From the NCBI GenBank assembly GCA_938002835.1, contig CALKZS010000082.1, positions 1 through 53,775 on the forward strand: DNA of 53,775 nucleotides, read 5' to 3'. Below, piece by piece: positions 11-53,175 of this stretch (positions within the stretch are counted from its first letter, which is position 1; every line of letters begins with the position of its first letter). Made by a program: the position numbers and the translations under genes. This stretch comes from an uncultured Dokdonia sp. GTDB lineage: Bacteria > Bacteroidota > Bacteroidia > Flavobacteriales > Flavobacteriaceae. The notes beneath the pieces were generated by a model. The model was not told where the DNA came from, searched no databases, and saw nothing but the letters and a program-made list of their open reading frames with translations.

Positions 11-1144
11 GTGTCCTCCATCTACATCCACATACCATTTTGCAAGCAAGCGTGTCACTATTGTGATTTTCACTTTTCTACGTCTATGGGCAAAAAGGAA
101 GAGATGATTAATGCGATTATCAAAGAACTAGAAATGCGTAAAGCCGAGTTTGAGAATGAGACTGTGGCAACTATTTATTTTGGAGGCGGAACACCATCGG
201 TATTAACTACAGATGAAATTGATGAGATAATCAATGCTTGTTACACACATTATACAATAGAAAAAGACCCAGAAATTACCTTAGAAGCAAATCCAGATGA
301 TCTTTCTATTGCAAAAATTGAAGAACTCGCAAACTCTAAGATTAATAGGTTGAGTATAGGAGTACAATCATTTTTTAATCAAGATCTCAAACTAATGAAT
401 CGTGCTCATAATGCAAAAGAGGCGGTAGAGAGTCTCACGCTTTCGCGAAAGCGTTTTCCAAACAGTTCCTTAGATCTCATTTATGGTATTCCAGAGATGA
501 GCAATGCGCGGTGGGAAGAAAATATAGACAAGGCACTGGCATTAAACACACCACATATATCTGCATATGCACTTACGGTAGAGCCTAAAACGGCATTAGA
601 AAATTTTATAAAAAAAGGAATCGTTCCGCCAGTAAATGACGAAGTAGCGCAAGAGCATCACAAAATATTAGTGCAAAAAATGGAAGCGGCAGGATATGAG
701 AATTATGAGTTTTCAAACTTTGCAAAACCAGGATACTATTCTAAAAATAACACGGCATACTGGCAAGGAAAAATATATATAGGCATAGGACCATCTGCAC
801 ATAGTTATGATGGTAAACGTCGCGCTTGGAATGTTTCAAATAATCCTAAATATATAAAAGCAATTACCTCTGGTGAGTTGCCACAAGAGATAGAAACGTT
901 ATCACAAACAGATCAATATAACGAGTATGTGATGACCCGTTTGCGCACGCAATATGGAGTTTCATTACAAGAAATAGGAACTAGTTTTGGGTTGAAGTTT
1001 AAAGATTATTTTATCAAACATTCTCAAAAACATATTGAAGAGCACTTATTGTTTGTAAAAGATGATCGCGTGTATGTGACAAAAAAAGGGAAGTTTTTAA
1101 GTGATGGTATCGCCAGTGATTTATTTATCTTGAATTTGAAGTAA
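11..1144 (+). CDS. hemW: HemW-like radical SAM protein (heme chaperone)
   Basis: Radical SAM protein of the HemW group, formerly annotated as oxygen-independent coproporphyrinogen oxidase. HemW proteins bind heme and are thought to deliver it to hemoproteins in the cytoplasm. The iron-sulfur motif CxxxCxxC is at C11, C15 and C18, followed by DFHFS. HemW has this three-cysteine form, while true HemN has an additional Cys. The SAM-binding GGGTPS is at residues 58-63. The 377-aa length is normal for HemW. The start is GTG at 11; a slightly earlier start outside the window cannot be excluded because only 10 bases precede it. A perfect copy of the genome palindrome lies inside the gene at 438-453 and is read as TLSRKR within what should be a helix before the DLIYGIP motif. 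Family assignment is firm; heme trafficking is family knowledge. Confidence 0.93.
   Translation: MSSIYIHIPFCKQACHYCDFHFSTSMGKKEEMINAIIKELEMRKAEFENETVATIYFGGGTPSVLTTDEIDEIINACYTHYTIEKDPEITLEANPDDLSIAKIEELANSKINRLSIGVQSFFNQDLKLMNRAHNAKEAVESLTLSRKRFPNSSLDLIYGIPEMSNARWEENIDKALALNTPHISAYALTVEPKTALENFIKKGIVPPVNDEVAQEHHKILVQKMEAAGYENYEFSNFAKPGYYSKNNTAYWQGKIYIGIGPSAHSYDGKRRAWNVSNNPKYIKAITSGELPQEIETLSQTDQYNEYVMTRLRTQYGVSLQEIGTSFGLKFKDYFIKHSQKHIEEHLLFVKDDRVYVTKKGKFLSDGIASDLFILNLK
438..453. repeat. Perfect 16-bp palindrome CGCTTTCGCGAAAGCG (copy 1, in hemW)
   Basis: Exact copy of the interspersed palindrome, extended to an 18-bp palindrome by flanking A and T (437-454). It is read in frame as LSRKR in HemW. 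Confidence 0.95.
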
Positions 1145-1225
1145 GTTTAATAAAAATAGGTGTCTATATAAAGAATGTGATATTTTGAGTTTACTTATAT
1201 TTATACTTTATCATACCTATAGCCA

Positions 1226-1987
1226 GTGCTTGCAAAAATCACTCATAACAAAGAGACTTTTATAGTAAATCTTTTAAAACCCATCGATATTTCGGTGCCT
1301 ATTACTAGTAAAAGCAATCCTCAGGCTTGGTATCTTGATACACCTAAATTTACCACGGTAAAAAATGGAGATTGGGTAGGAAGTGTTAAAGATGGCGGTG
1401 ATGTAAATTTTAGAACCATTACTTTTAATCCGCATTCTCACGGGACACATACAGAAACCGTAGGTCACATTACATCGCAAATACATAGCATTAATGAGCA
1501 TTTAAAAACTTTCTTTTTTATTGCAGAACTTGTGACAGTAACCCCAGAAGCTTTAGATACAGCAGACAATGATTTTGTGATTAAAGCAAGTCAGTTTAAT
1601 AATGTATTAAAAGCATCTGCCGAAGCATTAATCATTCGTACAGCACCTAATTTAGAGGATAAAAAAACAAAAAATTGGTCCCATACAAACTGGCCTTATG
1701 TTGAGGAGGAAGCAGTGGTACGCTTTCGCGAAAGCGGAATAAAACACCTTCTCATAGATCTTCCTAGTGTAGATAAAGAAAAAGATGGAGGCGCTTTAAA
1801 AGCACATCACGCATTTTGGAATACAAAGGGAGCATTGAGACTAGATGCTACAATCACAGAGATGATTTATGTGCCAGATACAGTGCCAGATGGTACGTAT
1901 TTATTAAACCTTCAAATAGCGTCTTTTGATAATGATGCAACACCTAGTAAACCCATTCTATATTCTATAAAAAAAATAAACGAATGA
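1226..1987 (+). CDS. Cyclase family protein (kynurenine formamidase-like)
   Basis: Member of the metal-dependent cyclase family (PF04199), which includes bacterial kynurenine formamidase KynB, isatin hydrolase and polyketide cyclases. The metal-binding signature is visible as H70-x-H72-G-T-H75-x-E77. The start is GTG at 1226; there is no nearby in-frame ATG. The stop codon overlaps the start of the next gene in an ATGA arrangement (1984-1987), so the two are probably translationally coupled. A tryptophan 2,3-dioxygenase lies 38 kb away in the same window, so a formamidase role in tryptophan breakdown is possible, but KynB function is not proven by the motif. A palindrome copy at 1721-1736 encodes RFRES inside the protein. 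Confidence 0.8.
   Translation: MLAKITHNKETFIVNLLKPIDISVPITSKSNPQAWYLDTPKFTTVKNGDWVGSVKDGGDVNFRTITFNPHSHGTHTETVGHITSQIHSINEHLKTFFFIAELVTVTPEALDTADNDFVIKASQFNNVLKASAEALIIRTAPNLEDKKTKNWSHTNWPYVEEEAVVRFRESGIKHLLIDLPSVDKEKDGGALKAHHAFWNTKGALRLDATITEMIYVPDTVPDGTYLLNLQIASFDNDATPSKPILYSIKKINE
1721..1736. repeat. Perfect 16-bp palindrome (copy 2, in cyclase gene)
   Basis: Exact copy of CGCTTTCGCGAAAGCG. It is read in frame as RFRES between a conserved Glu-rich segment and the DLPSVD motif of the cyclase. Confidence 0.95.
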
Positions 1988-2325
1988 AAGAACCATATTA
2001 CGCTGTAATATTTACATCAAAGCAAACAAGCCAAACTCGAGGTTATAAACAAGCAGCAGCTCTTATGGAAGAACTTGCACAGCAAATGCAAGGATATTTA
2101 GGTATAGAAAGTGCAAGAAACGAAAGTGATAAAGAAGGGGTGACAGTCTCTTACTGGAGGTCTCTAGAAGATATTGCACGATGGAAAGAGCAAGCAGAAC
2201 ATCAAGGAGCACAACGAATGGGAAAATCTGATTGGTATGAAAATTATACCGTGCGCATTTGTAAAGTAGAACGAGAATACCATTTTGAAGCGGCAACAAA
2301 TGGAAAAACAAAAGATGTTTCTTAA
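1984..2325 (+). CDS. Antibiotic biosynthesis monooxygenase (ABM) domain protein
   Basis: A 113-aa protein with the pattern of small dimeric alpha/beta-barrel ABM proteins (HmoA/YgiN type): an N-terminal strand (YYAVIFTSK), a helix with MEELAQQMQGYLGIES, then SYWRSLEDIARWKEQAEHQ and a C-terminal strand. Such proteins act as small cofactor-light monooxygenases or heme-degrading enzymes, but many have no known substrate. It overlaps the upstream cyclase by four bases (ATGA), so both are likely made together. The pairing suggests a shared small-molecule pathway, which I cannot name. No terminator is visible directly after the gene. Confidence 0.8.
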   Translation: MKEPYYAVIFTSKQTSQTRGYKQAAALMEELAQQMQGYLGIESARNESDKEGVTVSYWRSLEDIARWKEQAEHQGAQRMGKSDWYENYTVRICKVEREYHFEAATNGKTKDVS

Positions 2326-2412
2326 AAACTCACTCACACCCTCAAAAGTTCATTTAACTCATTAAAACAAGTCATTCCCTCATTTTGTCTGTATAAATAA
2401 TATGAATAATCA

Positions 2413-2420
2413 TAGATTTG
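2413..2420 (+). promoter_or_regulatory. Candidate Bacteroidota -7 element TAGATTTG
   Basis: Exact match to TAnnTTTG, 19 bp before the ATG of the small candidate peptide gene. The nearest upstream TTTG (2384-2387) is 25 bp away, longer than the usual 19-21, so the -33 element is poor. Confidence 0.4.
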
Positions 2421-2439
2421 AATATTAATATAAGCCAAA

Positions 2440-2547: not shown

Positions 2548-2803
2548 GATAAAGTTAGGTTTCATTTACTCTAATTTTACAAGGCATCAAAGATTTTTTT
2601 AAATATCAAAATGTATAGATCATTCATTTTAATATTTCTGTTTCTACGACACAAGCGTCTCAAAAATTTTATATAATCATTTAATAATCATCTCATATCG
2701 GCTATCTTTAGCTAGATATTGAATGCAAAAAAATTCACGGTTTACAGCCTATTTGTATTTATAGACTAACTGTAATTTTACTACCAAACACAATCGTCAT
2801 ATT

Positions 2804-5800: not shown

Positions 5801-8422
5801 GGTTTACAGAGAGATTCAGAAAGTGCAAAAATGCTTGTCTTTACAGCAGATAAAGAGAAGTACGAAGTGGGAGATAAAGCAGTTGTAAAGTTCCCATCTT
5901 CTGCAGCAGGAAGAGCATTAGTGAGTATAGAAAATGGCACACGAGTGATAGATAGTTATTGGGTAGATGCTCAAAAAGGGGAGACTTCTTTTAATATTCC
6001 TATTACTCCTGAAATGGCACCTAATGTGTTTATTAATATCTCACTATTACAACCTCACGAGCAATCTAAAAATGATTTACCTATACGTTTGTATGGTGTC
6101 GTTCCTATCTTGGTAGAAGATAAAAGCACAGTGCTAGAACCACAAATCTCAATGCCAGAGGTGTTAAAGCCAGAAGAAAGTTATACTGTAAAAGTAAGTG
6201 AGAAAAATAGTAAGGCAATGACCTATACGATTGCTGTAGTAGATGATGGTTTATTAGATCTCACTCGTTTTAAAACACCTAGAATACACAATTACTTTTA
6301 TAGTCCTGAAGCATTAGGTGTAAAAACTTTTGATATGTATGATGATGTTATTGGAGCTTTTTCTGGAAGCGTAGATAATATTTATGCGATAGGAGGAGGT
6401 GATGCTGCTGGCGCTGCAAAAAATAGAAAAGCAGAACGATTTAAGCCTGTAGTTACCTATTTAGGGCCTTTCGCTTTAAGCAAAAATGAAACCAAAACGC
6501 ATACATTAGAAATGCCTAATTATGTAGGGTCTGTAAGAACAATGGTGATTGCAGGAGATGCAACAAAGAGTGCATATGGTAAGGCAGATAAAACAACACC
6601 TGTTAGAAAACCATTAATGGTATTAGGATCGCTTCCGCGAAAACTTTCTCCTGGAGAACACGTGACATTACCAGTGACAGTGTTTGCTATGGAAAAGCAT
6701 ATAAAGAAAGCAAAAATCACCGTAAAAACATCAGAAGCATTTAAGGCAACAGATGGGCAATCCAAAACTGTAAACTTTACACGAATAGGAGAAAAAATAG
6801 TTCCTTTTGAGTTTGATATGCAACCTGCTACTGGAATTCAAAAAGTACAAATCATTGTAGAAGGTCACGGAGAGCGTGCAACTTATGATGTAGAAATAGA
6901 TGTAGAAAACCCTAACCCAATCACTCAAAAAGTGACAGATTATCAGCTTGCTGCTTCAGATAATTTAGAGATTTCTTATGACACATTTGGTGTGTCAGGT
7001 TCTAACGAAAGCGCATTAGAATTTTCTACACTACCTCCTATGGATTTTACAAAGCGTATGGAATATCTTATTCGTTATCCACACGGTTGTGTAGAGCAAA
7101 CCACATCTAGTGTATTCCCACAATTATTCTTAAGTGATGTATTTGACTTAACATATAATCAAAAACAAGAAGCTCAAGAAAACATTAAAAATGGAATTAC
7201 TCGTTTAGGAAGGTTCCAAAATGCAGATGGTGGTTTAGGATACTGGCAAGGGGAAACTAAAGCAGATGCTTGGGGAACAACCTATGCGGGTCACTTTATG
7301 ATAGAAGCTCAAAAAAGAGGTTATGCGTTACCTCTCACATTTATGAGCAACTGGTTACGTTTCCAGAAAAAAGCAGCTAGAGAATGGAGATCTGGACAAT
7401 ATCGATACAACTCAAGCTTGGTTCAAGCATATAGATTATATACACTAGCTTTAGCAGAGCAACCAGATCTTGCAGCGATGAACCGCTTGCGCGAAAATGC
7501 AGACCTTTCTAATGATGCAAAATGGAGACTAGCAGCAGCATATGCACTCGCAGGACAAGAAAAAATTGCACGCACGATCGCCAGCAGTGCAAACATAGAT
7601 TTTAAACCTAATAATTATAATTACCATTCATACGGTTCTGTATTTAGAAACAGAGCAATGGCATTAGAAACAATGGTTGTGTTAAAAGATAGTAAGCAAA
7701 AAGAGCTAGCAATTTCTATGGCAAAAGATCTGTCATCTAGTAAATGGTATAGTACACAGGAGACGAGTTATGCATTGTTAGCAATGGCAAAAATGGTACA
7801 GAAAAATGGAGGTAAAGCGATGAAACTCTCATATATAAAAGATGGAAAATCTGAAACCTTAGAAACAGGTCAAGCTATTGCACTACGTGAGTTAACAACT
7901 CAAGGAGGAAGCAATAAAGTGGTTCTTAAAAATGAAAAAGGAAATGTCGTTTTTGTAAGACTTATTCAGAGAGGTAAATTACCATTAGGTCAAGAACTTG
8001 CCGAAAATAAAAATTTCTCAGTTACCACAACCTTTATTGATGGATTTGATAATGAAATTGATATTACAGAGCTAAGACAGGGAGAAGAGTTTACTGCAAA
8101 AATTAGAGTGAGTAATAACAGTAGTGATTTTATAGATAATGTGGCGCTTACTCAAATTTTCCCTAGTGGATGGGAGATTGTAAACACTCGCTTTACAGAA
8201 GCTGGAGGGAGCACAGGAGGAAATGCACGATATACAGATATTAGAGACGATCGTGTAAACTTCTACTTTGATATGAATAAAGAAACTACCAAGACATTTA
8301 GTGTGCGTATAAATGCAAGTTATTTAGGAGATTATTATTTACCAGGAACTCAAGTAGAGGCAATGTATGATGCAAATTATTATGCAAGAGGAAAAGGAAA
8401 CTGGGTAAAGATTAAGCAATAA
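2804..8422 (+). CDS. Alpha-2-macroglobulin family lipoprotein
   Basis: Bacterial alpha-2-macroglobulin of 1872 aa, the large envelope protease trap (E. coli YfhM/MagD-like). The N-terminus is a lipoprotein signal peptide with lipobox VVSC (C27). The bait and MG domains follow. The thioester motif is intact as G1428-C1429-V-E-Q1432, so covalent trapping of attacking proteases is possible. After it come the alpha-helical thioester-domain repeats and a C-terminal receptor-like domain. An unusual acidic, tyrosine-rich low-complexity stretch (about residues 463-495) interrupts the early MG region. The next gene encodes PBP1C, the classic partner, which fits a defence-and-repair unit in the periplasm. 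Pairing and function are family knowledge; motif and order are seen directly. Confidence 0.95.
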   Translation: MLKKTGSFKLYHLATTLLLLLLVVVSCKDKPSETDNLFKFKDYISYHTEGLQSITSPIHVTVANSLTQFELDQEIPNDYFKISPNVEGTLSIRNQRLLEFRPTNYLEPNTTYEVTVLLDKIYDDLPDGMEKFNFSFKTIKADFKVDLRAIQSYSREYNYLEGQIEGSDAIALEKAEKLIEAFQDSKSLKIKWLNKDLYSKFHPFRIDSIKRFEGDKTILIKWDGDAIGAEDTKGSNTVLIPGRNNFSIINVDQTLGENASLNINFSDPLESKQNFAGLVTVQRGGDLRFEVDGNVLHVYPGNKIVGNSKIEVFQGIKNVYGYKLKNPFSEVISFEQLKPALKQVTNGVILPNSGSTPFYFEAVNLSHVDVRVIKIYENNVLEYLQDGDLNDKGTHNLKRVGRRIAKKTIEIASKEDIDRGLWKVHGVDMSTIFKADPGALYRVEVSFKPEYALYECEETSSNVEEDTYDDYYYYEDDYYEDSYSETQAENEDEREEQYWDNRIYRWRNRVYNWEEEDNPCHKAFYTEDRFLNANILGSDLGIIVKKGKDNSFVFAASDIISTAPEANTEIKLYNYQKQVIASATTDATGIVKMSPKGHPVYAVAKKENNYAYMKLADGYSLSMSKFDISGRHLEKGLKGFTYLERGVHRPGDDIYLTFVLDDSANPLPKDHPVKLEVTDARGKLVYRKVLTEGSKDPKSNEVKALNNFYSYTIPTEPTSPTGNWGATVSVGGATFYESLKVETIKPNRLKVALEFDDEILKGNESLTGKATVKWLHGAPARNLRINSDATITSSRTSFKKFPNYNFDDPTRYFSPVEINVLDTELNEEGMTDIDSELELSDRAPGMLRATFLTKAYEGGGDFSLDVVSKQIAPFDHFVGLRSPESRAYGSYYTDENTTFDIATTDTQGNAAGNRKLEVKVFKMSWRWWWNRSSDHYSSYETGTVHTPVNEFDVTTNGSGKANVTVNIPEEESGRYLIRVEDPESGHATGRIAYFYRNWSGLQRDSESAKMLVFTADKEKYEVGDKAVVKFPSSAAGRALVSIENGTRVIDSYWVDAQKGETSFNIPITPEMAPNVFINISLLQPHEQSKNDLPIRLYGVVPILVEDKSTVLEPQISMPEVLKPEESYTVKVSEKNSKAMTYTIAVVDDGLLDLTRFKTPRIHNYFYSPEALGVKTFDMYDDVIGAFSGSVDNIYAIGGGDAAGAAKNRKAERFKPVVTYLGPFALSKNETKTHTLEMPNYVGSVRTMVIAGDATKSAYGKADKTTPVRKPLMVLGSLPRKLSPGEHVTLPVTVFAMEKHIKKAKITVKTSEAFKATDGQSKTVNFTRIGEKIVPFEFDMQPATGIQKVQIIVEGHGERATYDVEIDVENPNPITQKVTDYQLAASDNLEISYDTFGVSGSNESALEFSTLPPMDFTKRMEYLIRYPHGCVEQTTSSVFPQLFLSDVFDLTYNQKQEAQENIKNGITRLGRFQNADGGLGYWQGETKADAWGTTYAGHFMIEAQKRGYALPLTFMSNWLRFQKKAAREWRSGQYRYNSSLVQAYRLYTLALAEQPDLAAMNRLRENADLSNDAKWRLAAAYALAGQEKIARTIASSANIDFKPNNYNYHSYGSVFRNRAMALETMVVLKDSKQKELAISMAKDLSSSKWYSTQETSYALLAMAKMVQKNGGKAMKLSYIKDGKSETLETGQAIALRELTTQGGSNKVVLKNEKGNVVFVRLIQRGKLPLGQELAENKNFSVTTTFIDGFDNEIDITELRQGEEFTAKIRVSNNSSDFIDNVALTQIFPSGWEIVNTRFTEAGGSTGGNARYTDIRDDRVNFYFDMNKETTKTFSVRINASYLGDYYLPGTQVEAMYDANYYARGKGNWVKIKQ

Positions 8423-8456: not shown

Positions 8457-10820
8457 TTGAATAGAAAAAAAGCAATCCAATATCTCAAAAAGCATAAAAT
8501 CAAAATTATAATTTTGACACTGGTTTTTGGGTATTGGTTGTTTTGTTTACCCAAACCTTTATTTAAGGATCCTCACGCTACGGTGGTAGAAAGTGTAGAA
8601 GGTAATCTTATGGGTGCTCGTATTGCAAGTGACGGCCAGTGGAGGTTTCCAGCTTTAGATAGCATTCCCTATAAATTTGAGCGATGCATATTGCTCTACG
8701 AAGATGAGTACTTTTATAAACATCCAGGTTTTAATCCTGTTGCGATGAGTAAAGCCATCTGGGGCAACTTAACTACAGATAGACGCCGTGGTGGGAGCAC
8801 ACTCACACAGCAAGTAATACGTTTATCTCGTAAAGGGCAAGAACGATCTTATGTCGAAAAGGCAGTAGAGCTTATAAAAGCAACACGTCTAGAAGCTGGA
8901 TATTCCAAACAAGAGATTCTTAATATGTATGCTACTTATGCACCTTTTGGAGGTAATGTAGTAGGACTTGAGACAGCCTCTTGGAGATATTATGGAGTGC
9001 CTTCATCACAATTGAGCTGGGGACAAATGGCAGCACTGGCAGTATTGCCCAATAACCCTAGTATGGTTAGACCAGGTAAAAATGAAACTAGATTCTTAAA
9101 AAAGCGCAATGCACTTCTCAAAAAACTTTTGAAATCTCAAGAAATAGATGAGATTGCATATGAGCTTGCATTACTAGAAGAATTACCTCAAAAACCATAT
9201 CCTTTACCACAGCTAGCACCGCATCTAGTAGAAACTATCAGACAGCAGTCTGAAGGAAAGCGCATAAAGACTACAATACAAACATCTGTACAGCAAGATC
9301 TCAATAGGCTTTCAGTAACTCACTATAATAATTTAAAGCAAAATGAGATTTATAACCTTGCTATTCTAGTAATGGATATTAAGGAAAAAAAGGTGATAGG
9401 ATATGTAGGTAATTCGCCCACAGATATAGAGCATCATAAAGATGTAGATATTGTCACAAAAAACCGAAGCACAGGAAGTACACTAAAACCTTTTTTATAT
9501 ACGGGAATGCTAGATGAAGGGATTATTTTGCCTAAAACTCTCGTAGCAGATATCCCAACAACGATAGGGACATATAGACCTCAGAATTTTAATAACGAAT
9601 ATGAAGGTGCTGTCTCTTCAGATAAAGCACTAGCAAGATCACTCAATGTGCCTGCAGTGAAAATGTTACGATCTTATGGGTTAGATAAATTTTATGGAGA
9701 CCTTAAGAAAATGAAATTAGGAGGCATTAATAAGCCTTCAAGTCATTATGGACTTGCGATGATCTTAGGAGGAGCAGAGAGTAGTCTTTTTGAGCTTACA
9801 AAAACCTATGCCGGTATGGCACATACACTACATACATTTACAAATACCTCAAGTGAGTATAGTAACGATGCTTTTGAGGGATACCGCTTTCGCGAAAGCG
9901 TAACAAACCAAAAAGACAAGGAACTACAAGGAGAACCCCCTATATTTTCTGCAGGAGCCATATACAATACATTAGAGACACTACGAAAAGTAAACCGACC
10001 GACAAGTGAAGAAAACTGGCAGTTTTATGAAGATGCACAACCTATTGCTTGGAAAACAGGAACCAGTTTTGGCTTTAAAGATGCCTGGGCAGTAGGAGTA
10101 ACTCCAGAGTATGCCATAGGAGTTTGGATTGGAAATGCAGATGGAGAAGGAAGACCTGGTATAACAGGAATTCAAGCAGCAGCGCCCTTATTTTTTGATG
10201 TACTGCGCAGTTTACCGTCCAACAGAAAATGGTTTGACACTCCATATGATGCACTTACTGAAGTAACGGTATGTAAAAAAAGTGGAATGAAAACGAGTGT
10301 CTATTGCCCAGAAACTGAGACATTATTAGTTCCTGTTGAAGGAGAAGAAAGTAGAGCGTGTCATTATCATAAACAAGTTTATGTGACACAAAATGAATCG
10401 TACAGAGTACATTCTGATTGTTATGAACTTGATGAGATGAAAGGAAAAACCTTTTTCTCACTTCCCACTGCAATGGAGTATTATTATGCATTAAAACATC
10501 CGGATTACAAAGAATTACCGCCATACCACCCAGATTGCAGTGCTACTGGGGAATTGCCACTCACATTTATATATCCTAAGGATAATGAAGCGGTATTATT
10601 ACCCAAGGACTTTGATGAGACTGTAAATGATGTCATCTTTAAGGTAGCACATCGCACTCCAGATATTAAGTTGTTTTGGTATTTAGACAATAAATTTGTT
10701 GGAAGTACAGAAGATTTTCACGAGCTAGCCATTGTACCTGAATCTGGCACATATATATTAACTGTAGTAGACGAAGAAGGTAATTCAGTGCAGAAGAAAA
10801 TAGAGATAATTAAAGCATAG
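8457..10820 (+). CDS. pbpC: Penicillin-binding protein 1C (bifunctional peptidoglycan synthase)
   Basis: Class A PBP of 787 aa. After a basic N-terminus and one membrane anchor (about residues 16-30) comes a GT51 glycosyltransferase domain with catalytic E82 in YEDEYFYKHPG and the RGGSTLTQQ motif (residues 111-119). The transpeptidase domain follows, with SxxK at S341-K344 (STLK), an SLN box and KTGT. A C-terminal PBP1C-type domain closes the protein. It synthesises and crosslinks peptidoglycan at the inner membrane. The start appears to be TTG at 8457: an in-frame stop lies just upstream and the next Met is beyond the membrane segment. It follows the alpha-2-macroglobulin gene by 34 bp, the usual pairing. 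A palindrome copy (9885-9900) encodes RFRES in the transpeptidase domain. Confidence 0.95.
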   Translation: MNRKKAIQYLKKHKIKIIILTLVFGYWLFCLPKPLFKDPHATVVESVEGNLMGARIASDGQWRFPALDSIPYKFERCILLYEDEYFYKHPGFNPVAMSKAIWGNLTTDRRRGGSTLTQQVIRLSRKGQERSYVEKAVELIKATRLEAGYSKQEILNMYATYAPFGGNVVGLETASWRYYGVPSSQLSWGQMAALAVLPNNPSMVRPGKNETRFLKKRNALLKKLLKSQEIDEIAYELALLEELPQKPYPLPQLAPHLVETIRQQSEGKRIKTTIQTSVQQDLNRLSVTHYNNLKQNEIYNLAILVMDIKEKKVIGYVGNSPTDIEHHKDVDIVTKNRSTGSTLKPFLYTGMLDEGIILPKTLVADIPTTIGTYRPQNFNNEYEGAVSSDKALARSLNVPAVKMLRSYGLDKFYGDLKKMKLGGINKPSSHYGLAMILGGAESSLFELTKTYAGMAHTLHTFTNTSSEYSNDAFEGYRFRESVTNQKDKELQGEPPIFSAGAIYNTLETLRKVNRPTSEENWQFYEDAQPIAWKTGTSFGFKDAWAVGVTPEYAIGVWIGNADGEGRPGITGIQAAAPLFFDVLRSLPSNRKWFDTPYDALTEVTVCKKSGMKTSVYCPETETLLVPVEGEESRACHYHKQVYVTQNESYRVHSDCYELDEMKGKTFFSLPTAMEYYYALKHPDYKELPPYHPDCSATGELPLTFIYPKDNEAVLLPKDFDETVNDVIFKVAHRTPDIKLFWYLDNKFVGSTEDFHELAIVPESGTYILTVVDEEGNSVQKKIEIIKA
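9885..9900. repeat. Perfect 16-bp palindrome (copy 3, in pbpC)
   Basis: Exact CGCTTTCGCGAAAGCG, read as RFRES between the SLN and KTGT motifs, probably in a surface loop. Confidence 0.95.
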
Positions 10821-12368: not shown

Positions 12369-12384
12369 CGCTTTCGCGAAAGCG
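12369..12384. repeat. Perfect 16-bp palindrome (copy 4, intergenic)
   Basis: Exact copy between convergent pepP and lysC. It ends 10 bp before the terminator stem at 12395. Flanking A and T extend it to 18 bp. Confidence 0.95.
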
Positions 12385-14548: not shown

Positions 14549-15827
14549 AGGTGTTTGTATCACGCTTTCGCGAAAGCGTAATTACATTCACTAAAATAAA
14601 AGTAACTACTGCTGGTAATAGCCAACTTAGATTAACTGTCCCTAAAGGGAGAAATTCCAAAACAGGTTTCATTGCATCTTTAAATCCTATAGCTGCCCAA
14701 AAATCTGGTGCACTAAAAAAGATAGTTACTACAACTACAATCTTAAACACAATTCTGGAAGCATATTTTTGAGGAATTGCATTAAGCAAAATAAGCACAA
14801 TTGTCACTGGATAAATAAACATTAATGCTGGAATCGCCACTACAATAATAGAATGTACATCAAGTTGCCCCATCAATACTCCTAAAATAGCTCCTAAAAT
14901 TGCGGTCACTTTATAAGCACTTTCAGAATTATTAAATAATCCTTTTATAAAATCTGCTGTTCCTGTAATGATTCCTACAGCGGTGGTAAAACACGCTAAG
15001 CTCACTAATACTCCTAAAACATTAGCTCCTATTGCGCCTAGAGTTTCTGTACTTAAAAATTGTAATAATGCTGTACGATCTGTATGTTCCATACCGCCGC
15101 TTTGTAATGACCCTAAAAAGATCAAACCACCATAAATAACTAATAACCCCAACCCCGCAATGATACCTGCGTTAGTGATAATGGTTTTATTTTCTTCAAT
15201 AGATCTATTTTTAAATCTTAAGGATATCACAATCACACCTCCAACAACGACGCCTCCTATAGCATCAAAGGTTTGATACCCTTCTAAAATTCCACTTGTA
15301 AATGTGCTATCAAAAATAGAAACCCTTAGAGTTTGATAATCTCCCATAACTCCTATCCCTATAATCAATAGTAGAATAAGTATAATAGCTGGGGTGAGGT
15401 ATTTTCCAATCAGATCCATTATTTTAGATCTGTTTAACGCAAATACTAAAACTAGTATAAAATAGATACTACTTAACATCCAGCTAGATATGTCAAAATA
15501 AGGTGCTATAGCCATTTCATAAGTAACAGAAGCTGTACGAGGAGCTGGCAAGGCTATAGAAATAGTATAGATAATAAGACAGTATATAAGTGCAAACAAT
15601 GGAGATACTTTTTTTGCAAAGTCCATCATCGTTCCTTGCAATCTTGCGTGACCGTAGATAGCTAATATAGGAATGATTACTGCGGAGATAGTAAAACCTA
15701 ATAACACAAAAAACCAAGAGCTACCTGCGTTATAACCAAGAAAAGAAGGTAATATGAGGTTTCCCGCTCCAAAAAATAATGAAAATAGTGCAAAAGCGGT
15801 AATAAAAGTTTGTTTGGTCATTTTCAT
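14538..15827 (-). CDS. brnQ: Branched-chain amino acid carrier, LIVCS family (BrnQ)
   Basis: Inner-membrane symporter for leucine, isoleucine and valine. About twelve hydrophobic segments are visible, starting with TKQTFITAFALFSLFFGAGN, and the N-terminal FGAGNLILP motif is typical of BrnQ. I set the start at the ATG 15827 (MKMTKQTF). An upstream start would add a non-conserved 27-residue tail that crosses into the divergent hydrolase gene. The extreme C-terminus is encoded by a palindrome copy (14563-14578), giving LSRKRDTNTFIS, a basic tail after the last membrane segment. The gene end overlaps the convergent ACT-domain gene by 11 bp. The neighbourhood of lysC, ACT protein and BrnQ hints at amino acid homeostasis. 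Confidence 0.92.
   Translation of the reverse strand: MKMTKQTFITAFALFSLFFGAGNLILPSFLGYNAGSSWFFVLLGFTISAVIIPILAIYGHARLQGTMMDFAKKVSPLFALIYCLIIYTISIALPAPRTASVTYEMAIAPYFDISSWMLSSIYFILVLVFALNRSKIMDLIGKYLTPAIILILLLIIGIGVMGDYQTLRVSIFDSTFTSGILEGYQTFDAIGGVVVGGVIVISLRFKNRSIEENKTIITNAGIIAGLGLLVIYGGLIFLGSLQSGGMEHTDRTALLQFLSTETLGAIGANVLGVLVSLACFTTAVGIITGTADFIKGLFNNSESAYKVTAILGAILGVLMGQLDVHSIIVVAIPALMFIYPVTIVLILLNAIPQKYASRIVFKIVVVVTIFFSAPDFWAAIGFKDAMKPVLEFLPLGTVNLSWLLPAVVTFILVNVITLSRKRDTNTFIS
14563..14578. repeat. Perfect 16-bp palindrome (copy 5, 3' end of brnQ)
   Basis: Exact copy close to the convergent gene ends. It encodes LSRKR in the final residues of BrnQ on the minus strand. Confidence 0.95.
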
Positions 15828-19638: not shown

Positions 19639-20864
19639 AAAAAATAATCCCCATATTTATAATTATCGCATATGCTATCATAGCTTGTAAAAATGATGAT
19701 AACACACAAACACCCGAAGAAATTATACCAGGGGATGTTTTTGAAAGATCTCAATGCACTAATGGTTTTGCAAATGTATACCCCTGTAATAACTATGACC
19801 TGATGGCAAGAATATCCTTAGCCACTTTAGGAGTAGAAAGACTTAATGACATATGGGGATGGACAGATCCTGATACACAAAAAGAGTATGCGTTAGTAGG
19901 CACTTTTTCAAATACTATATTTATTGACATTACCAATCCAGAAAATCTTATTATTGTGGGTAGTCTTCCCACACAAAGCACTTCTTCTAACTGGAGAGAT
20001 ATTAAAGTATTTCAAAACTATGCTTTTATTGTAAGTGAGGCTGCAAATCACGGGATGCAAGTCTTTGATCTAACAAGATTGAGAGACCCTCAAACAACAC
20101 CAATTACTTATACAGCAGATGCTGTTTACACAGAATTTAGCACAGGTTCTACCCATAATATTGTAATCAATGAAGACTCTGGATATGCATATGCCGTAGG
20201 AACAGATGATTTTTTAGGAGGCCCTCATATCATCAACATTCAAGATCCTCTTAATCCCACTTTTGCAGGAGGTTTTGACTTTATAGACTATACACACGAC
20301 GCTCAAGTAGTGACCTACAATGGTCCAGATCCTGATTATCAAGGACGAGAACTATTAATTGGAAGTACCGAAAACTTTCTCACTGTTGTAGATGTAACAG
20401 ATAAGTCTAATCCTGAGTTCATCTCTAGAGTTGCACAAGATAATGTAGGATTTATTCATCAAGGATGGTTTAATGAATCTCAAACCTTATTTTATACAAA
20501 TGATGAACTGGACGAAACAGAATTTGGCTTTAACTCTCGCACGCTTGTTTTTAATCTCTCAGATCTAGATAATCCTATATATGAAGGTCCATATTTTGGC
20601 CCCACACAGGCCGTAGATCACAACCTCTACGTAAAAGAAAATGAGTTGTTTCTATCTAACTATTCTGCCGGTTTAAGAATAGCAGATATTTCAGACCCCA
20701 ACCCTACTTCAATTACAGAGATAGGGCATTTTGACACATTTCCTGAAACAGATGATGCTATTTTTGATGGTGTGTGGAGCGTTTATCCATTTTTTGATAG
20801 TGGAAACATTATCATCTCAGACATCACAAATGGTTTTTTTATCATTCGTAAAACTGGCACTTGA
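19635..20864 (+). CDS. Choice-of-anchor B / LVIVD-repeat lipoprotein
   Basis: Paralogue of the preceding protein, sharing the WGWTD, NWRDIKVFQNYAF, HGMQVFDLTRLR, GGPHIINIQDPLNPTFAGG and HQGWF blocks. It differs in anchoring: the N-terminus is a lipoprotein signal with C18 (AIIAC), and there is no T9SS tail. So one copy is a lipoprotein and the other a T9SS substrate. The 4-bp ATGA overlap with the upstream gene supports translational coupling. The repeats suggest a beta-propeller binding protein; no enzyme motif is seen. Confidence 0.82.
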   Translation: MKKIIPIFIIIAYAIIACKNDDNTQTPEEIIPGDVFERSQCTNGFANVYPCNNYDLMARISLATLGVERLNDIWGWTDPDTQKEYALVGTFSNTIFIDITNPENLIIVGSLPTQSTSSNWRDIKVFQNYAFIVSEAANHGMQVFDLTRLRDPQTTPITYTADAVYTEFSTGSTHNIVINEDSGYAYAVGTDDFLGGPHIINIQDPLNPTFAGGFDFIDYTHDAQVVTYNGPDPDYQGRELLIGSTENFLTVVDVTDKSNPEFISRVAQDNVGFIHQGWFNESQTLFYTNDELDETEFGFNSRTLVFNLSDLDNPIYEGPYFGPTQAVDHNLYVKENELFLSNYSAGLRIADISDPNPTSITEIGHFDTFPETDDAIFDGVWSVYPFFDSGNIIISDITNGFFIIRKTGT

Positions 20865-20866
20865 TT

Positions 20867-32872: not shown

Positions 32873-33874
32873 ATGGATAGTCTTACTCAAATTGTTTTAG
32901 GAGCTGCAGTAGGTGAAGCTGTTTTAGGAAAAAAAATAGGTAACCGAGCTATGCTTTGGGGTGCTATTGCTGGGACAATTCCAGATCTAGATGTCATTGC
33001 GAGATCTGTAACAGACACTATAACCGCGACAGCAGTACATCGTGGGTTTAGCCATTCTATAGTTTTTTCAGTGCTAATGGCTCCACTGCTAGGATGGTTA
33101 CTACATCAAATAAGAAAACGAGAAAATGTAGGTTGGAAAGGATGGTCTTGGTTATTCTTTTGGGGCTTATTTACACATCCGCTATTAGATGCATTTACTA
33201 CTTGGGGAACACAATTATTTTGGCCTTTTAAAACCAGATTGGCTTTTAACTCTATTTTTGTGATCGATCCGTTGTACACATTACCTTTTTTAATATGTGT
33301 GATTATCGCAATGATAAAGAGACGAGATTCGCTTTCGCGAAAGCGAATAAACAACCTAGGTATTTATCTAAGTACAGCTTATCTCCTAGTGACATTAGTA
33401 CTTAAATGGGTGGCATTTACAAAGGTCGAAAAATCGTTAAAAAGGCAAGGAATTGAATATTCTCAAATTTCTACCAGACCATCATTTATGAATACCATTT
33501 TATGGAATATAAATGTAGACACCCCAAATGAATACTTAATAGGGGATTATTCTTTTTTTGATAGTCAAGAGATCTCATTTACCTCCTATCCTAAAAAAAG
33601 AGAAGTTTCTCAATTACTAGCAAGTAGAGAAGAAGTGCAATGTCTAATAGATATTTCTGAAGGTTGGTATATATTAGAGCAAGAAGGAGATCAATGGGTG
33701 TATAATGATTTACGTTTTGGATTGATAGCTATAGATCCAGAGAAACCTCAGTTTGTATTTAGATATTTCTTAGACGATAATGGTGACAAGATTATTGCTA
33801 CCGAAGATCGCCCAGATCGTAGTAATATGAAAACTGTTTTTTATTCCTTATGGTCTAGAATAAGAGGGAATTAA
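32873..33874 (+). CDS. YdjM-family membrane metal-dependent hydrolase
   Basis: A 333-aa protein of the YdjM family (PF04307, membrane-bound predicted metal-dependent hydrolase). The typical opening MDSLTQIVLGAAVGEAVLG, then AGTIPDLDVIA and VHRGFSHSI, plus FTHPLLDAFTTWGTQ, supply the conserved Asp/His residues in membrane-flanked loops. Several membrane helices follow. A perfect palindrome (33330-33345) encodes SLSRKR in a cytoplasmic loop after the fourth helix. The substrate is unknown. Confidence 0.88.
   Translation: MDSLTQIVLGAAVGEAVLGKKIGNRAMLWGAIAGTIPDLDVIARSVTDTITATAVHRGFSHSIVFSVLMAPLLGWLLHQIRKRENVGWKGWSWLFFWGLFTHPLLDAFTTWGTQLFWPFKTRLAFNSIFVIDPLYTLPFLICVIIAMIKRRDSLSRKRINNLGIYLSTAYLLVTLVLKWVAFTKVEKSLKRQGIEYSQISTRPSFMNTILWNINVDTPNEYLIGDYSFFDSQEISFTSYPKKREVSQLLASREEVQCLIDISEGWYILEQEGDQWVYNDLRFGLIAIDPEKPQFVFRYFLDDNGDKIIATEDRPDRSNMKTVFYSLWSRIRGN
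33330..33345. repeat. Perfect 16-bp palindrome (copy 8, in YdjM-family gene)
   Basis: Exact copy. Flanking bases extend the palindrome to 20 bp (33328-33347, TTCGCTTTCGCGAAAGCGAA), the longest version here. Read as LSRKR. Confidence 0.95.
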
Positions 33875-37028: not shown

Positions 37029-37044
37029 CGCTTTCGCGAAAACA
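37029..37044. repeat. Decayed palindrome copy
   Basis: CGCTTTCGCGAAAACA, two G-to-A changes, in the short gap between CCC-motif genes 2 and 3. The same variant occurs at 40262-40277. Confidence 0.7.
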
Positions 37045-39753: not shown

Positions 39754-39769
39754 CGCTTTCGCGAAAGCG
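39754..39769. repeat. Perfect 16-bp palindrome (copy 9, at kynA start)
   Basis: Exact copy ending 3 bp before the kynA ATG, exactly where a ribosome-binding site would be. In RNA it can fold into a 6-bp hairpin with a CGCG loop. Confidence 0.95.
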
Positions 39770-39772
39770 TAA

Positions 39773-40711
39773 ATGAAAAAACCTATACAACCAGACATAG
39801 AGAAAATAATTGGGGAACTAGATCATAAGTATGAAAAAATAGATCAAGATCTAGATGATCATCTAGAGGGTTTATTGCAAAGTAAGCCTATTACATACTG
39901 GGATTATATTCATACAGATGCGCTCCTCAATTTACAATTACCGCGCACAAACTTTCCAGATGAGAATGTCTTTATAATGTACCATCAGGTTAATGAACTT
40001 ATCTTTAAGATGGTACTTTGGGAGATAGATCAAGTTGCGCATCATCCAGATCTTACAGTAGATTTCTTTAGCTCACGTTTAGACCGAATAAGTAGGTATT
40101 TTGATATGCTTACCAACTCTTTTAGTATTATGGAAAAAGGGATGGATCTAGATCAGTATATGAAATTTAGAAAAACACTCACACCAGCTAGTGGGTTTCA
40201 AAGTGCTCAATATCGAAAAATTGAATTTGCAAGCACAGACTTAATTAATCTTATAGATATCCGCTTTCGCGAAAACATAAATCGTAATACATCCTACGAG
40301 CACACTCTAGAACATCTGTACTGGCAAGCAGCAGGTAAAGATTATAAGACAGGTAAAAAATCATATTTACTTAAGGAATTTGAAGAAAAGTATAAAAATG
40401 ACTTTGTTGCATTTACAAAAGAATATAATACTATAAATTTGTATGCAAGATTTAAAAGTTTACCGCAAGAAGCTCAAGAAAATCAGAAACTACGAGAAGC
40501 AATGCGTCATTATGACTATACAGTAAATGTTACTTGGGTAATGTCACATTATAATGCTGCAAATCATTATTTAAATAATGGTAAAAAAGTAGTAGAAGCA
40601 ACAGGAGGAAGTGAGTGGACAAAATATATGCACCCTAAATACCAAAGACGCATTTTCTTTCCAGATATATGGACAGAGCAAGAGCTAGCTCAATGGGGTC
40701 AAAATGTGTAA
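39773..40711 (+). CDS. kynA: Tryptophan 2,3-dioxygenase
   Basis: A 312-aa heme dioxygenase opening the indole ring of tryptophan to N-formylkynurenine. Hallmarks are the distal H71 in MYHQVNELIFKM, LTPASGFQSAQYRKIEF, the proximal-heme region SHYNAANHYL and the ATGGSEWTKYM loop. A decayed palindrome (40262-40277) encodes IRFREN. The formamidase and kynureninase steps are not adjacent. Confidence 0.95.
   Translation: MKKPIQPDIEKIIGELDHKYEKIDQDLDDHLEGLLQSKPITYWDYIHTDALLNLQLPRTNFPDENVFIMYHQVNELIFKMVLWEIDQVAHHPDLTVDFFSSRLDRISRYFDMLTNSFSIMEKGMDLDQYMKFRKTLTPASGFQSAQYRKIEFASTDLINLIDIRFRENINRNTSYEHTLEHLYWQAAGKDYKTGKKSYLLKEFEEKYKNDFVAFTKEYNTINLYARFKSLPQEAQENQKLREAMRHYDYTVNVTWVMSHYNAANHYLNNGKKVVEATGGSEWTKYMHPKYQRRIFFPDIWTEQELAQWGQNV
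40262..40277. repeat. Decayed palindrome copy in kynA
   Basis: CGCTTTCGCGAAAACA: two G-to-A changes, read as RFREN. The same variant occurs at 37029. Confidence 0.7.
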
Positions 40712-42038: not shown

Positions 42039-43652
42039 ATGAAAAATATAAATCCAACCACCACTACTGCTTGGAAAAAACTTCAAGTGCACTTTCAAGA
42101 AACAAAAGATGTGCATCTCAAAGAGTTGTTTGAAGATCAAAACCGCGCAGTAGATTTTACGATACATTGGGAAGATTTTGTAGTAGATTATAGTAAAAAC
42201 CGTATTACAAAAGATACTCGTGACTTACTTGTAGAGCTTGCTAATGAAGTAGGTTTACAAGATGCAATAGATAGTTATTTTGGTGGTGATGCAATTAATG
42301 CAACAGAGGGTCGTGCTGTGATGCATACGGCATTAAGGGATGAGAGTGATACCGCTTTCGCGAAAGCAGAAGTAGATACAGTAAAAAAGGCTATCCAGTC
42401 TTTTACTCAAAAAATTATTTCTGGAGATCATAAAGGAACCACTGGAAAGTCTATAACTGATGTAGTAAATATAGGAATAGGAGGTTCTGACCTTGGTCCA
42501 GTGATGATCGTCGAAGCACTTCAATATTATAAAAATCATCTTAATACACATTTTGTGTCAAACGTAGATGGAGATCACGTGATGGAAATCATCAAAGAAT
42601 TAGATCCAGAAACAACTTTGTTTGTTATTGTGTCTAAAACATTTACTACACAAGAAACCCTTAGTAACGCCCGTACGATAAGAAAGTGGTTTGTTGATAA
42701 GCTAGATGAAAAAGCAGTAGCAAATCACTTTGTTGCAGTCTCTACTAATCTGGAAGCTATTGAAGATTTTGGGATAGTATCTTCTAATGTTTTTCCTATG
42801 TGGGAATGGGTTGGTGGGCGTTTTTCATTATGGAGTTCTGTAGGTTTATCTATAGCCCTTGCGGTAGGATATGATCATTTTGAACAATTACTACACGGAG
42901 CCTTTAAAATGGATACTCATTTTAAAACAGCTTCTTTTGATAAAAACATACCAGTAATTACAGCACTTTTAAGTGTATGGTATAATAATTTTTATAAAGC
43001 ACAAACAGAAGCGATCATTCCATATACTCAGTATTTACATAGATTGCCTGCATATCTACAACAAGCTATTATGGAAAGTAATGGTAAAAGTGTAGATCGT
43101 AATGGAGAAGAAGTGGCTTATGAAACAGGGACTATTATTTGGGGAGAGCCTGGGACAAACTCACAACACGCTTTTTTTCAACTCATTCATCAAGGAACAA
43201 AATTGATCCCTGCAGATTTTATAGGTTTTAGAAAATCATTACATAATAATACAGACCATCACGATAAGTTAATGGCAAATTTCTTTGCTCAAACGGAAGC
43301 CTTGATGAATGGAAAGACAAAAGCTCAGGTTATTGAAGAGTTAACTATAAGTGAGGTTTCTCGAGATCGTATAGATGTTCTATCTCCTTTTAAAGTGTTT
43401 ACTGGAAATAAACCAACCACCACAATACTAGGAGAAAAGCTTACTCCAAAAAGTTTAGGAAGTTTGATTTCTATGTATGAACATAAAATATTTGTACAGG
43501 GAGTAATTTGGAATATTTATTCTTATGATCAATGGGGGGTAGAGTTAGGAAAGCAGTTAGCAACAAAAATTCTTAAAGATTTTGATCAGATAAGTAGTGC
43601 TTCTCACGATGTTTCTACAATGCACTTGTTAAAGTATTACAAAAACTCTTAA
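42039..43652 (+). CDS. pgi: Glucose-6-phosphate isomerase
   Basis: Glycolytic isomerase of 537 aa. The phosphate-binding GIGGSDLGPVM, VSKTFTTQET, QQAIMESNGKS with the catalytic Glu, and the PGI signature GEPGTNSQHAFFQLIHQGT are all present. A decayed palindrome (42353-42368) gives TAFAKAE in a helix. It follows the M23 gene by 15 bp. Confidence 0.97.
   Translation: MKNINPTTTTAWKKLQVHFQETKDVHLKELFEDQNRAVDFTIHWEDFVVDYSKNRITKDTRDLLVELANEVGLQDAIDSYFGGDAINATEGRAVMHTALRDESDTAFAKAEVDTVKKAIQSFTQKIISGDHKGTTGKSITDVVNIGIGGSDLGPVMIVEALQYYKNHLNTHFVSNVDGDHVMEIIKELDPETTLFVIVSKTFTTQETLSNARTIRKWFVDKLDEKAVANHFVAVSTNLEAIEDFGIVSSNVFPMWEWVGGRFSLWSSVGLSIALAVGYDHFEQLLHGAFKMDTHFKTASFDKNIPVITALLSVWYNNFYKAQTEAIIPYTQYLHRLPAYLQQAIMESNGKSVDRNGEEVAYETGTIIWGEPGTNSQHAFFQLIHQGTKLIPADFIGFRKSLHNNTDHHDKLMANFFAQTEALMNGKTKAQVIEELTISEVSRDRIDVLSPFKVFTGNKPTTTILGEKLTPKSLGSLISMYEHKIFVQGVIWNIYSYDQWGVELGKQLATKILKDFDQISSASHDVSTMHLLKYYKNS
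42353..42368. repeat. Near-perfect palindrome in pgi
   Basis: CGCTTTCGCGAAAGCA: one CpG-site transition from the consensus, read as AFAKA. Confidence 0.8.
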
Positions 43653-47632: not shown

Positions 47633-47648
47633 CGCTTTCGCGAAAGCA
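47633..47648. repeat. Near-perfect palindrome, intergenic
   Basis: CGCTTTCGCGAAAGCA, one transition from the consensus, 16 bp before the terminator stem. AT-rich arms extend the inverted repeat (TATTATT ... AATAATA). Confidence 0.85.
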
Positions 47649-48852: not shown

Positions 48853-48913
48853 CAAAATAATTATAACGGTTTCTTAATATAAACTGTTTAATAAAACTAA
48901 TTTACTAAATCAT

Positions 48914-51691: not shown

Positions 51692-51719
51692 TAACATAGA
51701 ATAAGAAGAAATTTATATT

Positions 51720-53144
51720 ATGAAAACAATAAAATTAACTCAAGTATTTCTGGCTCTTTTAGCCCTAGTTACGATCACAGGTTGTGTAAATGATGATGAT
51801 TTTGCAACGCCTGATCTTACAATAGAAGAACCTCAATTAGATGGAGAAATAATTACAATTACTGCTGTTGAAGGGGTTTTGTTACAAGCAATTCTTGATG
51901 GTGAAAATAGCATCACATTTGAAGGTACAAATGCATATCTAGAAGGTTATGTGATATCTAGTGATGAGTCAGGAAATTGGTTTGAAGAAATAATCATTCA
52001 AGATGAGCCTAGTAATCCTAATAGAGGAATTCGTATACTTATAGATGAAAGTCCGTTATTTACTACCTATGAAATAGGTAGAAAAATCTTTATTAAACTT
52101 GATGGACTAACAGCAGGCTTCGGCAATGGAGTGTTATCTTTAGGTTTTTTAGAAGGTAATTTTTTAGAAAAAATACCTGCGCCTCTTCAATTTGAACTTA
52201 TTCAACGTTCTTCTGAGATTGAAGAAATTATTCCTTTAGAAGTTTCCATTAGTGATTTTGACGATACTTTGGAGAATTTATTTATTACTTTATCAGATGT
52301 TCAATTTTCAAGAGAAGAAGTGATAGATGCATCTTTAACATTTGCAGGTGAGCCGTTAGATGAGTTTGATGGAGAACGTACAATCTTTAGTTGTGAGACG
52401 CAACAAACAGCTATTTTAAGTACAAGTACTTTTGCAGATTTTAAATCGCAAGCATTACCTACAGGAAGAGGTACAATATCAGGAGTCCTTACTCGTAATT
52501 TCTTTGGAGATACATTTAACATTGTTGTAAACGATATTTCTGATATAGCATTTGATGATGATACACGTTGTGATCCAGTAGAGATAGATTGTGGTTTAGC
52601 AACAGCAGCTGGATCGAGTATTCTTTTTGAAGATTTCTTCGAGACTCAATCTACAGGAAATGCTATTTCGGGTAATGGATGGACAAATTTTCAAGAAGCG
52701 GGCTCAAGAACTTGGGAAGCTTTTTCAAGTACAGGTCAAAATGCATCATTAGGTATATCTGCTTCAGTAGGGTCATTTATGTCTGGTGATGACTCAACGA
52801 TTGCGTGGTTAGTGACTCCAGAAATTGATTTTGTATCTGAAGAAGGAGAAACATTACAATTTCAAACATCAAATAGCTTTTCTGATGGAAGTACATTAGA
52901 TATTTTATTCTCAAGCGATTGGGATGGAGTGCCAGCAAACATACCTAATGCGACTTGGGATGTATTACCTTCTGCAACTGTAGTAGATGATGCAGATTTC
53001 TTTGGAGATTGGATCTCATCTGGTATTGTAGATCTATCTTGTGTAGAAACTACGGGTTATATTGCATTTAGATATATAGGCTCTGGAGATGCAGATTTTG
53101 ATGGAACTTATGAGCTTGATGAAATAGAGATTAATGCAAATTAA
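51720..53144 (+). CDS. DUF5689 domain-containing lipoprotein
   Basis: A 474-aa lipoprotein (C22, ITGC). The first half matches DUF5689: GTNAYLEGYVISSDESGNWFEEIIIQD, GRKIFIKLDGL and GTISGVLTRNFFGDTFNIVV. The second half is a jelly-roll, choice-of-anchor-J-like module (LFEDFFETQSTGNAISGNGW, WLVTPEIDF, and TGYIAFRYIGSGDADFDGTYELDEIEI). It is 28 bp after the TonB receptor and likely its surface partner, similar in position to SusD-like lipoproteins though unrelated. Confidence 0.88.
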   Translation: MKTIKLTQVFLALLALVTITGCVNDDDFATPDLTIEEPQLDGEIITITAVEGVLLQAILDGENSITFEGTNAYLEGYVISSDESGNWFEEIIIQDEPSNPNRGIRILIDESPLFTTYEIGRKIFIKLDGLTAGFGNGVLSLGFLEGNFLEKIPAPLQFELIQRSSEIEEIIPLEVSISDFDDTLENLFITLSDVQFSREEVIDASLTFAGEPLDEFDGERTIFSCETQQTAILSTSTFADFKSQALPTGRGTISGVLTRNFFGDTFNIVVNDISDIAFDDDTRCDPVEIDCGLATAAGSSILFEDFFETQSTGNAISGNGWTNFQEAGSRTWEAFSSTGQNASLGISASVGSFMSGDDSTIAWLVTPEIDFVSEEGETLQFQTSNSFSDGSTLDILFSSDWDGVPANIPNATWDVLPSATVVDDADFFGDWISSGIVDLSCVETTGYIAFRYIGSGDADFDGTYELDEIEINAN

Positions 53145-53159
53145 TATTTGTGAGCTTCA

Positions 53160-53175
53160 CGCTTTCGCGAAAGCG
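53160..53175. repeat. Perfect 16-bp palindrome (copy 10, intergenic)
   Basis: Exact copy 15 bp after the DUF5689 stop and 16 bp before the terminator stem. Flanks extend it to 20 bp (53158-53177). Confidence 0.95.

Follow-up and report, generated by a model that had tools for sequence, protein, structure and literature searches.

A chromosomal palindrome of Dokdonia composed of two superposed oriented motifs, and its possible role as a DNA uptake sequence

The window studied here, 53,775 nucleotides (53.8 kb) of an uncultured Dokdonia sp. (Flavobacteriaceae; GenBank assembly GCA_938002835.1, contig CALKZS010000082.1), carries ten copies of a 16-bp palindrome that an initial annotation of this DNA described as symmetric and so without orientation. 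This last point has to be revised: one-sided variants reveal an oriented 13-bp motif, TTTCGCGNAAGCG, that spans the centre; two opposite copies of it, superposed on one another, make up the palindrome. The function that we infer from the comparison of genomes, tentatively and with slightly less than even confidence, is that of a clade-specific DNA uptake (self-recognition) sequence of natural transformation, which is the most likely of the readings that we have weighed.

An oriented motif written on both strands

The ten copies reported by the initial annotation are all exact (10/10 coordinates) and occur, as it had said, both inside genes and in gaps; palindromy reaches 18-22 bp at six of them, in line with its remark that copies extend beyond 16 bp. 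That this is far above chance is borne out by 100 dinucleotide shuffles of the window, in which the maximum is 0, and by an order-3 Markov model, which expects 8e-7 copies. Beside the ten palindromes (two-way sites, with the motif on both strands), TTTCGCGNAAGCG occurs six more times in the window in a form that is exact on a single strand (one-way sites). The sites are as follows, with genes called by a crude rule of the longest open reading frame (ORF).

438..453, both strands: two-way site within a HemN/HemW-like radical SAM gene
1721..1736, both strands: two-way site within a putative cyclase gene
9885..9900, both strands: two-way site within a PBP1C-like gene, RFRES reading
12369..12384, both strands: two-way site between ORFs
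14563..14578, both strands: two-way site at the 3' end of a minus-strand branched-chain amino acid transporter ORF
20904..20919, both strands: two-way site at the start of ORF 20861..22312 or immediately ahead of it, the true start codon being uncertain
26789..26804, both strands: two-way site within a TonB-dependent receptor gene
33330..33345, both strands: two-way site within a YdjM-like gene
39754..39769, both strands: two-way site between ORFs
53160..53175, both strands: two-way site between ORFs
6630..6642, minus strand: one-way copy of TTTCGCGNAAGCG, N=G
7484..7496, minus strand: one-way copy of TTTCGCGNAAGCG, N=C
37029..37041, minus strand: one-way copy, N=A, opposite half lost
40262..40274, minus strand: one-way copy, N=A, opposite half lost
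42353..42365, minus strand: one-way by the strict 13-mer, other strand without the last G only
47633..47645, minus strand: one-way by the strict 13-mer, other strand without the last G only

The composite nature of the palindrome is best seen in its imperfect copies. In 400 kb of the Dokdonia genome G001 the 16-mer occurs 79 times exactly and 26 times with one mismatch; 25 of these 26 mismatches fall at the outermost C/G, and what hardly varies is the inner GCTTTCGCGAAAGC. Over about 1.1 Mb of the same genome the 14-mer core is found 294 times exactly and 21, 56 and 53 times with one, two and three mismatches, against Markov expectations of 0, 0, 2.5 and 25 for 0, 1, 2 and 3 mismatches. Double mismatches are mostly restricted to one half of the core (36/56); triple mismatches mostly touch both halves (46/53), and in several of them one half has lost its GC and the inner A of the other half is changed. 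Once the palindromes are masked, 81 copies of TTTCGCG-N-AAGCG are left in G001. (One 20 kb stretch of G001, at 2.05-2.07 Mb and with 1 core site, was counted twice in the tallies of spacing, terminus, flanks, mismatch spectrum and masked motifs; those of two-way and one-way sites, replication strand and trans coupling are free of it.) In 1.095 Mb, 149 exact 13-mers have no exact partner on the opposite strand (0.06 expected), and in 68 of them the partner is short of the last G only.

The decisive observation is a coupling of mismatches in trans. In G001 the opposite GC is lost in 34 of the 41 motifs whose inner A is changed, against 46 of 632 in which the A is kept, a tally that enters every palindrome once per strand; counted by locus, the GC is lost in 46 and kept in 293 of the sites with the A kept (46/339; Fisher p 1e-19). 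The other Dokdonia agree, the GC being lost in 19/20 A-changed motifs, and lost in 23 and kept in 84 when the A is unchanged (p 4e-10). The cis pattern, in which the inner T and the outer GC of the same side are lost, occurs once in G001, where 7/8 T-changed motifs retain the GC of the same side. Trans coupling and the rarity of the cis pattern therefore establish a 13-bp oriented motif that spans the centre, and the coupling rules out a dyad of half-sites, i.e. a symmetric dimer site. This grammar is shown for Dokdonia only: the one-way sites of the related genus g11 (g11 and g191 are genus codes within Flavobacteriaceae) and of genome G207 are too few, and the test has no power there (1 changed motif, p 1, and 2, p 0.26, respectively).

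A strict count, which takes the exact 13-mer, finds 218 two-way and 149 one-way sites in G001, or one site about every 3.0 kb. The corresponding numbers are 10/6 in the window, 15/18 in G004, 10/14 in G002, 7/8 in G017 and 11/13 in G015, all Dokdonia; 17/12 in g11 and 6/6 in G207; and 0/0 in ten motif-poor genera sampled at 20 kb each. A relaxed count, which leaves out the last G of the motif, gives about 293:80 in G001, 84:42 in the five other Dokdonia sets (window included), 26:2 in g11 and 12:4 in G207.

The motif has flanks as well. The bias spans about 23 nt per side of the palindrome, C-poor and G/T-rich before the site and the mirror image after it; genes and gaps show it alike, and there is no covariation between the two sides. 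Seen from TTTCGCGNAAGCG, the borders are a 3' flank of about 20 nt, A/C-rich and G-poor, and a 5' flank with a weaker enrichment in G/T, in which GG, GT and TG abound. The flanks have a composition in common, not a sequence, and we estimate about 29 bits for the core and about 5 bits per flank. A mutational footprint (deamination) is not favoured as the source of the bias, since the fall in C goes with a rise in G. The flanks show a weak 6-bp period that we do not claim, a 3-bp period being stronger for A, G and T. An oriented unit with a flank is the layout of the uptake signal sequence (USS).

Clade range, retention and origin of the sites

The 3.10 Mb draft genome from which the window comes has 344 exact 16-mers and 0 copies of the reversed pattern used as a control. 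The inner 14-mer is present 610 times in this genome and 0-6 times in each other genome (395 genomes of the phylum). Since the excess is genome-wide, the reservations of the initial annotation, that the word might be no commoner in the genome than chance predicts or might be restricted to the window, fall away. All 18 Dokdonia genomes searched are rich in the 16-mer (138-711 copies, the maximum in G016). At least one copy occurs in 48 of 397 family genomes; the rich ones are Dokdonia (344, 630), g11 (495, 579, 448) and g191 (153), and the remaining 42 have 1-13 copies each. In an RpoB tree g191 (one genome) is the sister of Dokdonia at 100/100 and g11 is unplaced; as to a single origin in g11 and Dokdonia, this tree requires 2 changes, of which strongly supported branches force only 1.

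A highly iterated, clade-specific palindrome, found in genes and gaps and GC-rich relative to its genome, naturally recalls HIP1 of cyanobacteria, and it might be kept, as in that case, by a cognate DNA methyltransferase together with repair. Alternate HIPs with their own methyltransferases are described in the relevant part of PMC4390886, where HIPs are mostly 5-8 bp, sometimes symmetrically extended, and alternate HIPs generally number 1000-2000 per Mb. What we see in the rich genomes is, by contrast, an oriented 13-mer with flanks and not a short symmetric palindrome, at a palindromic core density of about 200-270 per Mb. Nor did searches with PF00145 and PF01555 find a conserved methylase (PF02086 and type I enzymes were outside these searches): PF00145 is present in 5/13 Dokdonia and 2/3 g11 and absent from 8/13 Dokdonia, including G016 with its 711 copies, and from G258 and G207, while PF01555 is above the cut-off in 0/13 Dokdonia and 1/3 g11 and is present in G207. 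We consider a HIP1-type origin very unlikely.

Once present, a site is kept. In line with the initial annotation's interest in conserved positions between close species, 14 of 15 alignable sites are identical between G001 and G004, against 8.7% of background 14-mers (7 further G001 sites are unaligned). Inside proteins, with each genome pair entered in both directions, sites are kept at the same codons in 56 of 65 cases for pairs less than 70% identical (background 14-mers, 3.3%), in 106/155 for pairs 70-85% identical (5.6%) and in 108/115 for pairs at least 85% identical (36.6%). Judged from these alignments, the sites are kept as DNA, far longer than the sequence that surrounds them. Of the 93 in-ORF palindromes in G001, 49 read AFAKA, 24 are of the RFRES type and 20 of the TLSRK type; 19 lie within the first tenth of the ORF. 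The odd peptides that the sites encode in Dokdonia proteins are probably passengers of constraint at the DNA level.

The PBP1C-like gene, the sole gene in which we examined origin, has orthologues in 17 of the 18 Dokdonia (none was found in G008). In 16 of these 17 the site stands at the same codons, in the TLSRKR reading, and it is the only invariant 16-nt stretch among the 16 (2 of 2298 windows, both covering the site). We compared this place with 17 genomes outside Dokdonia (14 motif-poor genera and 3 g11), and in the 14 motif-poor genera it has codons without the motif and no indel, from which we conclude, for this gene, that sites arose by substitution and not by insertion. The orthologue in our window has lost the site at the conserved place and has another one in a variable loop, and the sites of the three g11 orthologues, read in two different frames, fall in this loop region too; the loop sites of the window and of g11 are therefore likely to be separate gains. 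A site common to both was considered and dropped after a better alignment of this variable loop. Some of the g11 gains in variable loops could involve indels.

These alignments bear directly on the idea that a mobile palindromic element, of the Rickettsia palindromic element or REP/RAYT type, has been inserting copies. Copies are indeed dispersed and also stand in frame within genes; yet the PBP1C site replaces aligned codons, with no indel relative to other genera, and the flanks of different copies share composition without sharing sequence. We regard this already disfavoured explanation as highly improbable.

The stray copies in genera that are otherwise poor in the motif are a separate matter. 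In eight such genomes, at nine places, they lie in or near metal-efflux and copper-ATPase genes (assigned by eye), at recurring spacings of about 933, 2446 and 3460 bp (stretches L162-L170). The stretches carry genes for an apparent metal-efflux pump, an outer-membrane factor and a copper P-type ATPase, common to several genera, and because they are alike between genera the stray copies probably belong to a transferred metal-resistance island.

Placement on the chromosome and in phages

In 720 kb of G001, ORFs occupy 89% of the DNA and hold 93 of 189 core sites; the other 96 fall in the gaps, with about 11% of the DNA. This preference for gaps is what one would expect of a transcription signal (a terminator, an operator or an RNA hairpin). 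However, the gap sites with both neighbours called (n=91) are distributed over tandem, divergent and convergent gaps (63, 16 and 12) in proportion to length, about half of all copies are inside ORFs, and the flanks show no covariation. Such a role, already disfavoured, seems to us hardly credible. As for the one-way sites of G001, they are more often in ORFs than the two-way sites (97/149 against 112/218, p 0.01), and within ORFs 59 are antisense and 38 sense, a weak tendency (p 0.04).

Short distances between sites are avoided: 11 of 279 intervals in G001 are below 1 kb, against 65.8 expected, with a mode near 3 kb, and the first 100 exact 16-mers give 2 gaps below 1 kb against 18.4 expected, which is significant. 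Overall even spacing, in contrast, is not supported for these 100 copies (coefficient of variation 0.91, P 0.20); a single gap of 38 kb keeps the coefficient from being significantly low. G001:C1 287374-320876 contains two long intervals between core sites (16.7 and 16.8 kb), and GC there is 0.41 against a sample mean of about 0.38.

The initial annotation had also raised the distribution of copies between strands and from origin to terminus. With the replichores of G001 set roughly from GC skew, 73 lone motifs lie on the leading and 76 on the lagging strand, and in the sampled parts, about one third of this genome, there is no terminus effect (80 core sites between 2.0 and 2.3 Mb, 25 between 0.6 and 0.7 Mb). 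In the 212.6 kb of DNA common to the four Dokdonia compared there are 55 sites, against 10 in 88.5 kb of DNA shared with at most one other; site counts from several Dokdonia genomes are not independent.

Could the sites bind a chromosome-organising protein, such as a nucleoid anchor or occlusion factor needed every few kb? The sites of ParB/Noc and MatP are chromosomal palindromes of 13-16 bp, a size similar to that found here, and the avoidance of short gaps, the strong conservation and the indifference to gene direction would all suit such a protein. Several points argue against it, however. The trans coupling of mismatches contradicts a simple symmetric dimer site; there is no pattern relative to origin or terminus in the sampled parts, the terminus being neither depleted nor enriched, and there are hundreds more sites than in those families. 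As we report below, phages carry the motif. For a Noc-like system, one would look for a second ParB paralogue, and 14 of 15 motif-rich genomes have a single ParB (PF02195), G002 having two. We think this explanation quite unlikely.

A bidirectional signal similar to Chi has to be considered for the same data. A helicase-nuclease of the RecBCD/AddAB type would read the motif from its 3' side and stop degrading there, RecA would be loaded on the G/T-rich 5' side, and superposed orientations would serve the two ends of a break. A two-way form on a grid of about 3 kb is understandable if one side is served by each orientation; GG, GT and TG are frequent in the 5' flank, and phages carry the motif. 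According to the part of PMC8022716 devoted to it, E. coli Chi, GCTGGTGG, is found once in about 5 kb, with a higher density in core DNA, and our sites resemble it in being oriented, in numbering about one per 3-5 kb and in being denser in shared DNA. In the same part E. coli Chi is polarised to the leading strand, whereas our lone motifs are unpolarised, and Chi has 8 nt against 12 fixed positions plus flanks in a motif that is mostly two-way. We therefore judge a role of this kind unlikely.

The occurrence in phages comes from IMG/VR, where the 16-mer is found in 41 stretches belonging to 30 records. In a protein scan of three of them 9/10 match phage families, including terminase, portal, major head, tape measure and tail sheath; these three records, 18-28 kb long, have 4-6 core sites, which makes about 2.2 per 10 kb; they had been picked for the presence of the site. 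An integrase is found in 9 of the 30 records and in 4 of the 10 with at least three core sites; of these nine, three are of high GC and contain only one site, probably there by chance. The absence of an integrase means little because IMG/VR records are fragments. A search of phages and plasmids with the consensus as query gave chance-level matches only (E 2-8).

An uptake sequence or another two-way signal

The initial annotation had hesitated between an element like HIP1 and a signal for uptake or segregation. The two methylase classes searched and the density speak against the first, the lack of a pattern relative to origin and terminus in the sampled third of G001 against segregation, and the uptake branch is the best supported. 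We propose that a DNA receptor of natural transformation may bind the oriented TTTCGCGNAAGCG in either orientation, and because of this would preferentially take up fragments that bear a site; recombination of these fragments into the chromosome would then raise and keep the number of sites in shared DNA. CGCTTTCGCGAAAGCG is the form that presents the motif on both strands, and a two-way site would be engaged whichever strand the receptor meets.

This proposal would account for the clade-limited range, the origin by substitution (in one gene), the kept positions, the few short gaps, the lack of strand bias, the greater density in shared DNA, the presence in genes and gaps without preference for a type of gap, and the carriage by tailed phages, some with integrase. 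Most of this is known from the DNA uptake sequences (DUS) of Neisseria and the USS of Pasteurellaceae, which are likewise clade-specific, oriented units with a flank, present in hundreds of copies per genome. The relevant part of PMC1939737 suggests gradual point mutation as the origin of uptake sequences, and mentions their even spacing (noted by others), their lack of orientation bias round the chromosome and their presence in genes and gaps; USS accumulate in temperate phages of Pasteurellaceae, according to a part of PMC6776037. Within the family, the corresponding part of PMC7965970 describes Riemerella columbina as transformable and as preferring its own DNA, and names, as putative uptake words, A-rich k-mers that are frequent in Riemerella and Flavobacterium.

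Several observations nevertheless weigh against an uptake sequence. Known uptake sequences are not palindromic, as far as the part of PMC1939737 on their form goes, whereas the Dokdonia site is mostly written both ways at once, is longer and stricter, and belongs to Bacteroidota. A bias in uptake has no obvious need for both orientations at one spot, nor an obvious reason to disfavour a second site less than 1 kb away, and the information in the core and its flanks exceeds what some 880 sites per genome (an extrapolated number) need. A lost site is not clearly replaced nearby (42/63, against 59% for random positions, p 0.25), so that compensation is unsupported, and the one-way forms of g11 in the relaxed count are too rare for a test of the grammar. 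Finally, no gene for a receptor or reader was found among the PF00145, PF01555, ParB and ComEC profiles examined; the ComEC domain is present in 27/27 genomes, 17 motif-rich and 10 motif-poor, and does not discriminate because it is equally present in the latter.

Another possibility, which we hold to be somewhat unlikely, is a new class of two-way, gridded chromosome signal. An asymmetric machine would read TTTCGCGNAAGCG and its flank directionally, and selection would superpose the two orientations so that one site serves both sides, for example in bidirectional recombination or repair; the protein responsible for recognition would be one not yet known in any clade.

Should the site be an uptake sequence, we know of no earlier palindromic example, nor of an earlier well-supported one from Bacteroidota. 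It would then reveal a way in which marine flavobacteria may confine gene exchange to their own lineage, and would give experimenters a tag with which to transform Dokdonia, which serves as a model of proteorhodopsin phototrophy. Otherwise, hundreds of strongly constrained 14-bp sites pose a larger puzzle. Either way, the grammar of superposed oriented units makes the question of function directly testable. In the literature searched (subscription journals and preprints lay outside the search) we found no earlier report: no paper contains the 14-mer, and the 10 papers with TTTCGCGAAA are unrelated, to judge by their titles and the openings of their abstracts.

Other words are also repeated in these genomes: in G001, after masking, GTTACCGTTCCG has 37 copies and TAGACGGAACGG 25 (L087-L106, L142-L146, L171-L181, L212-L231), and in a motif-poor genus a repeat with AACGGTTAAGGC reaches 14 copies per 20 kb (L132, G118:C1:100001-120000).

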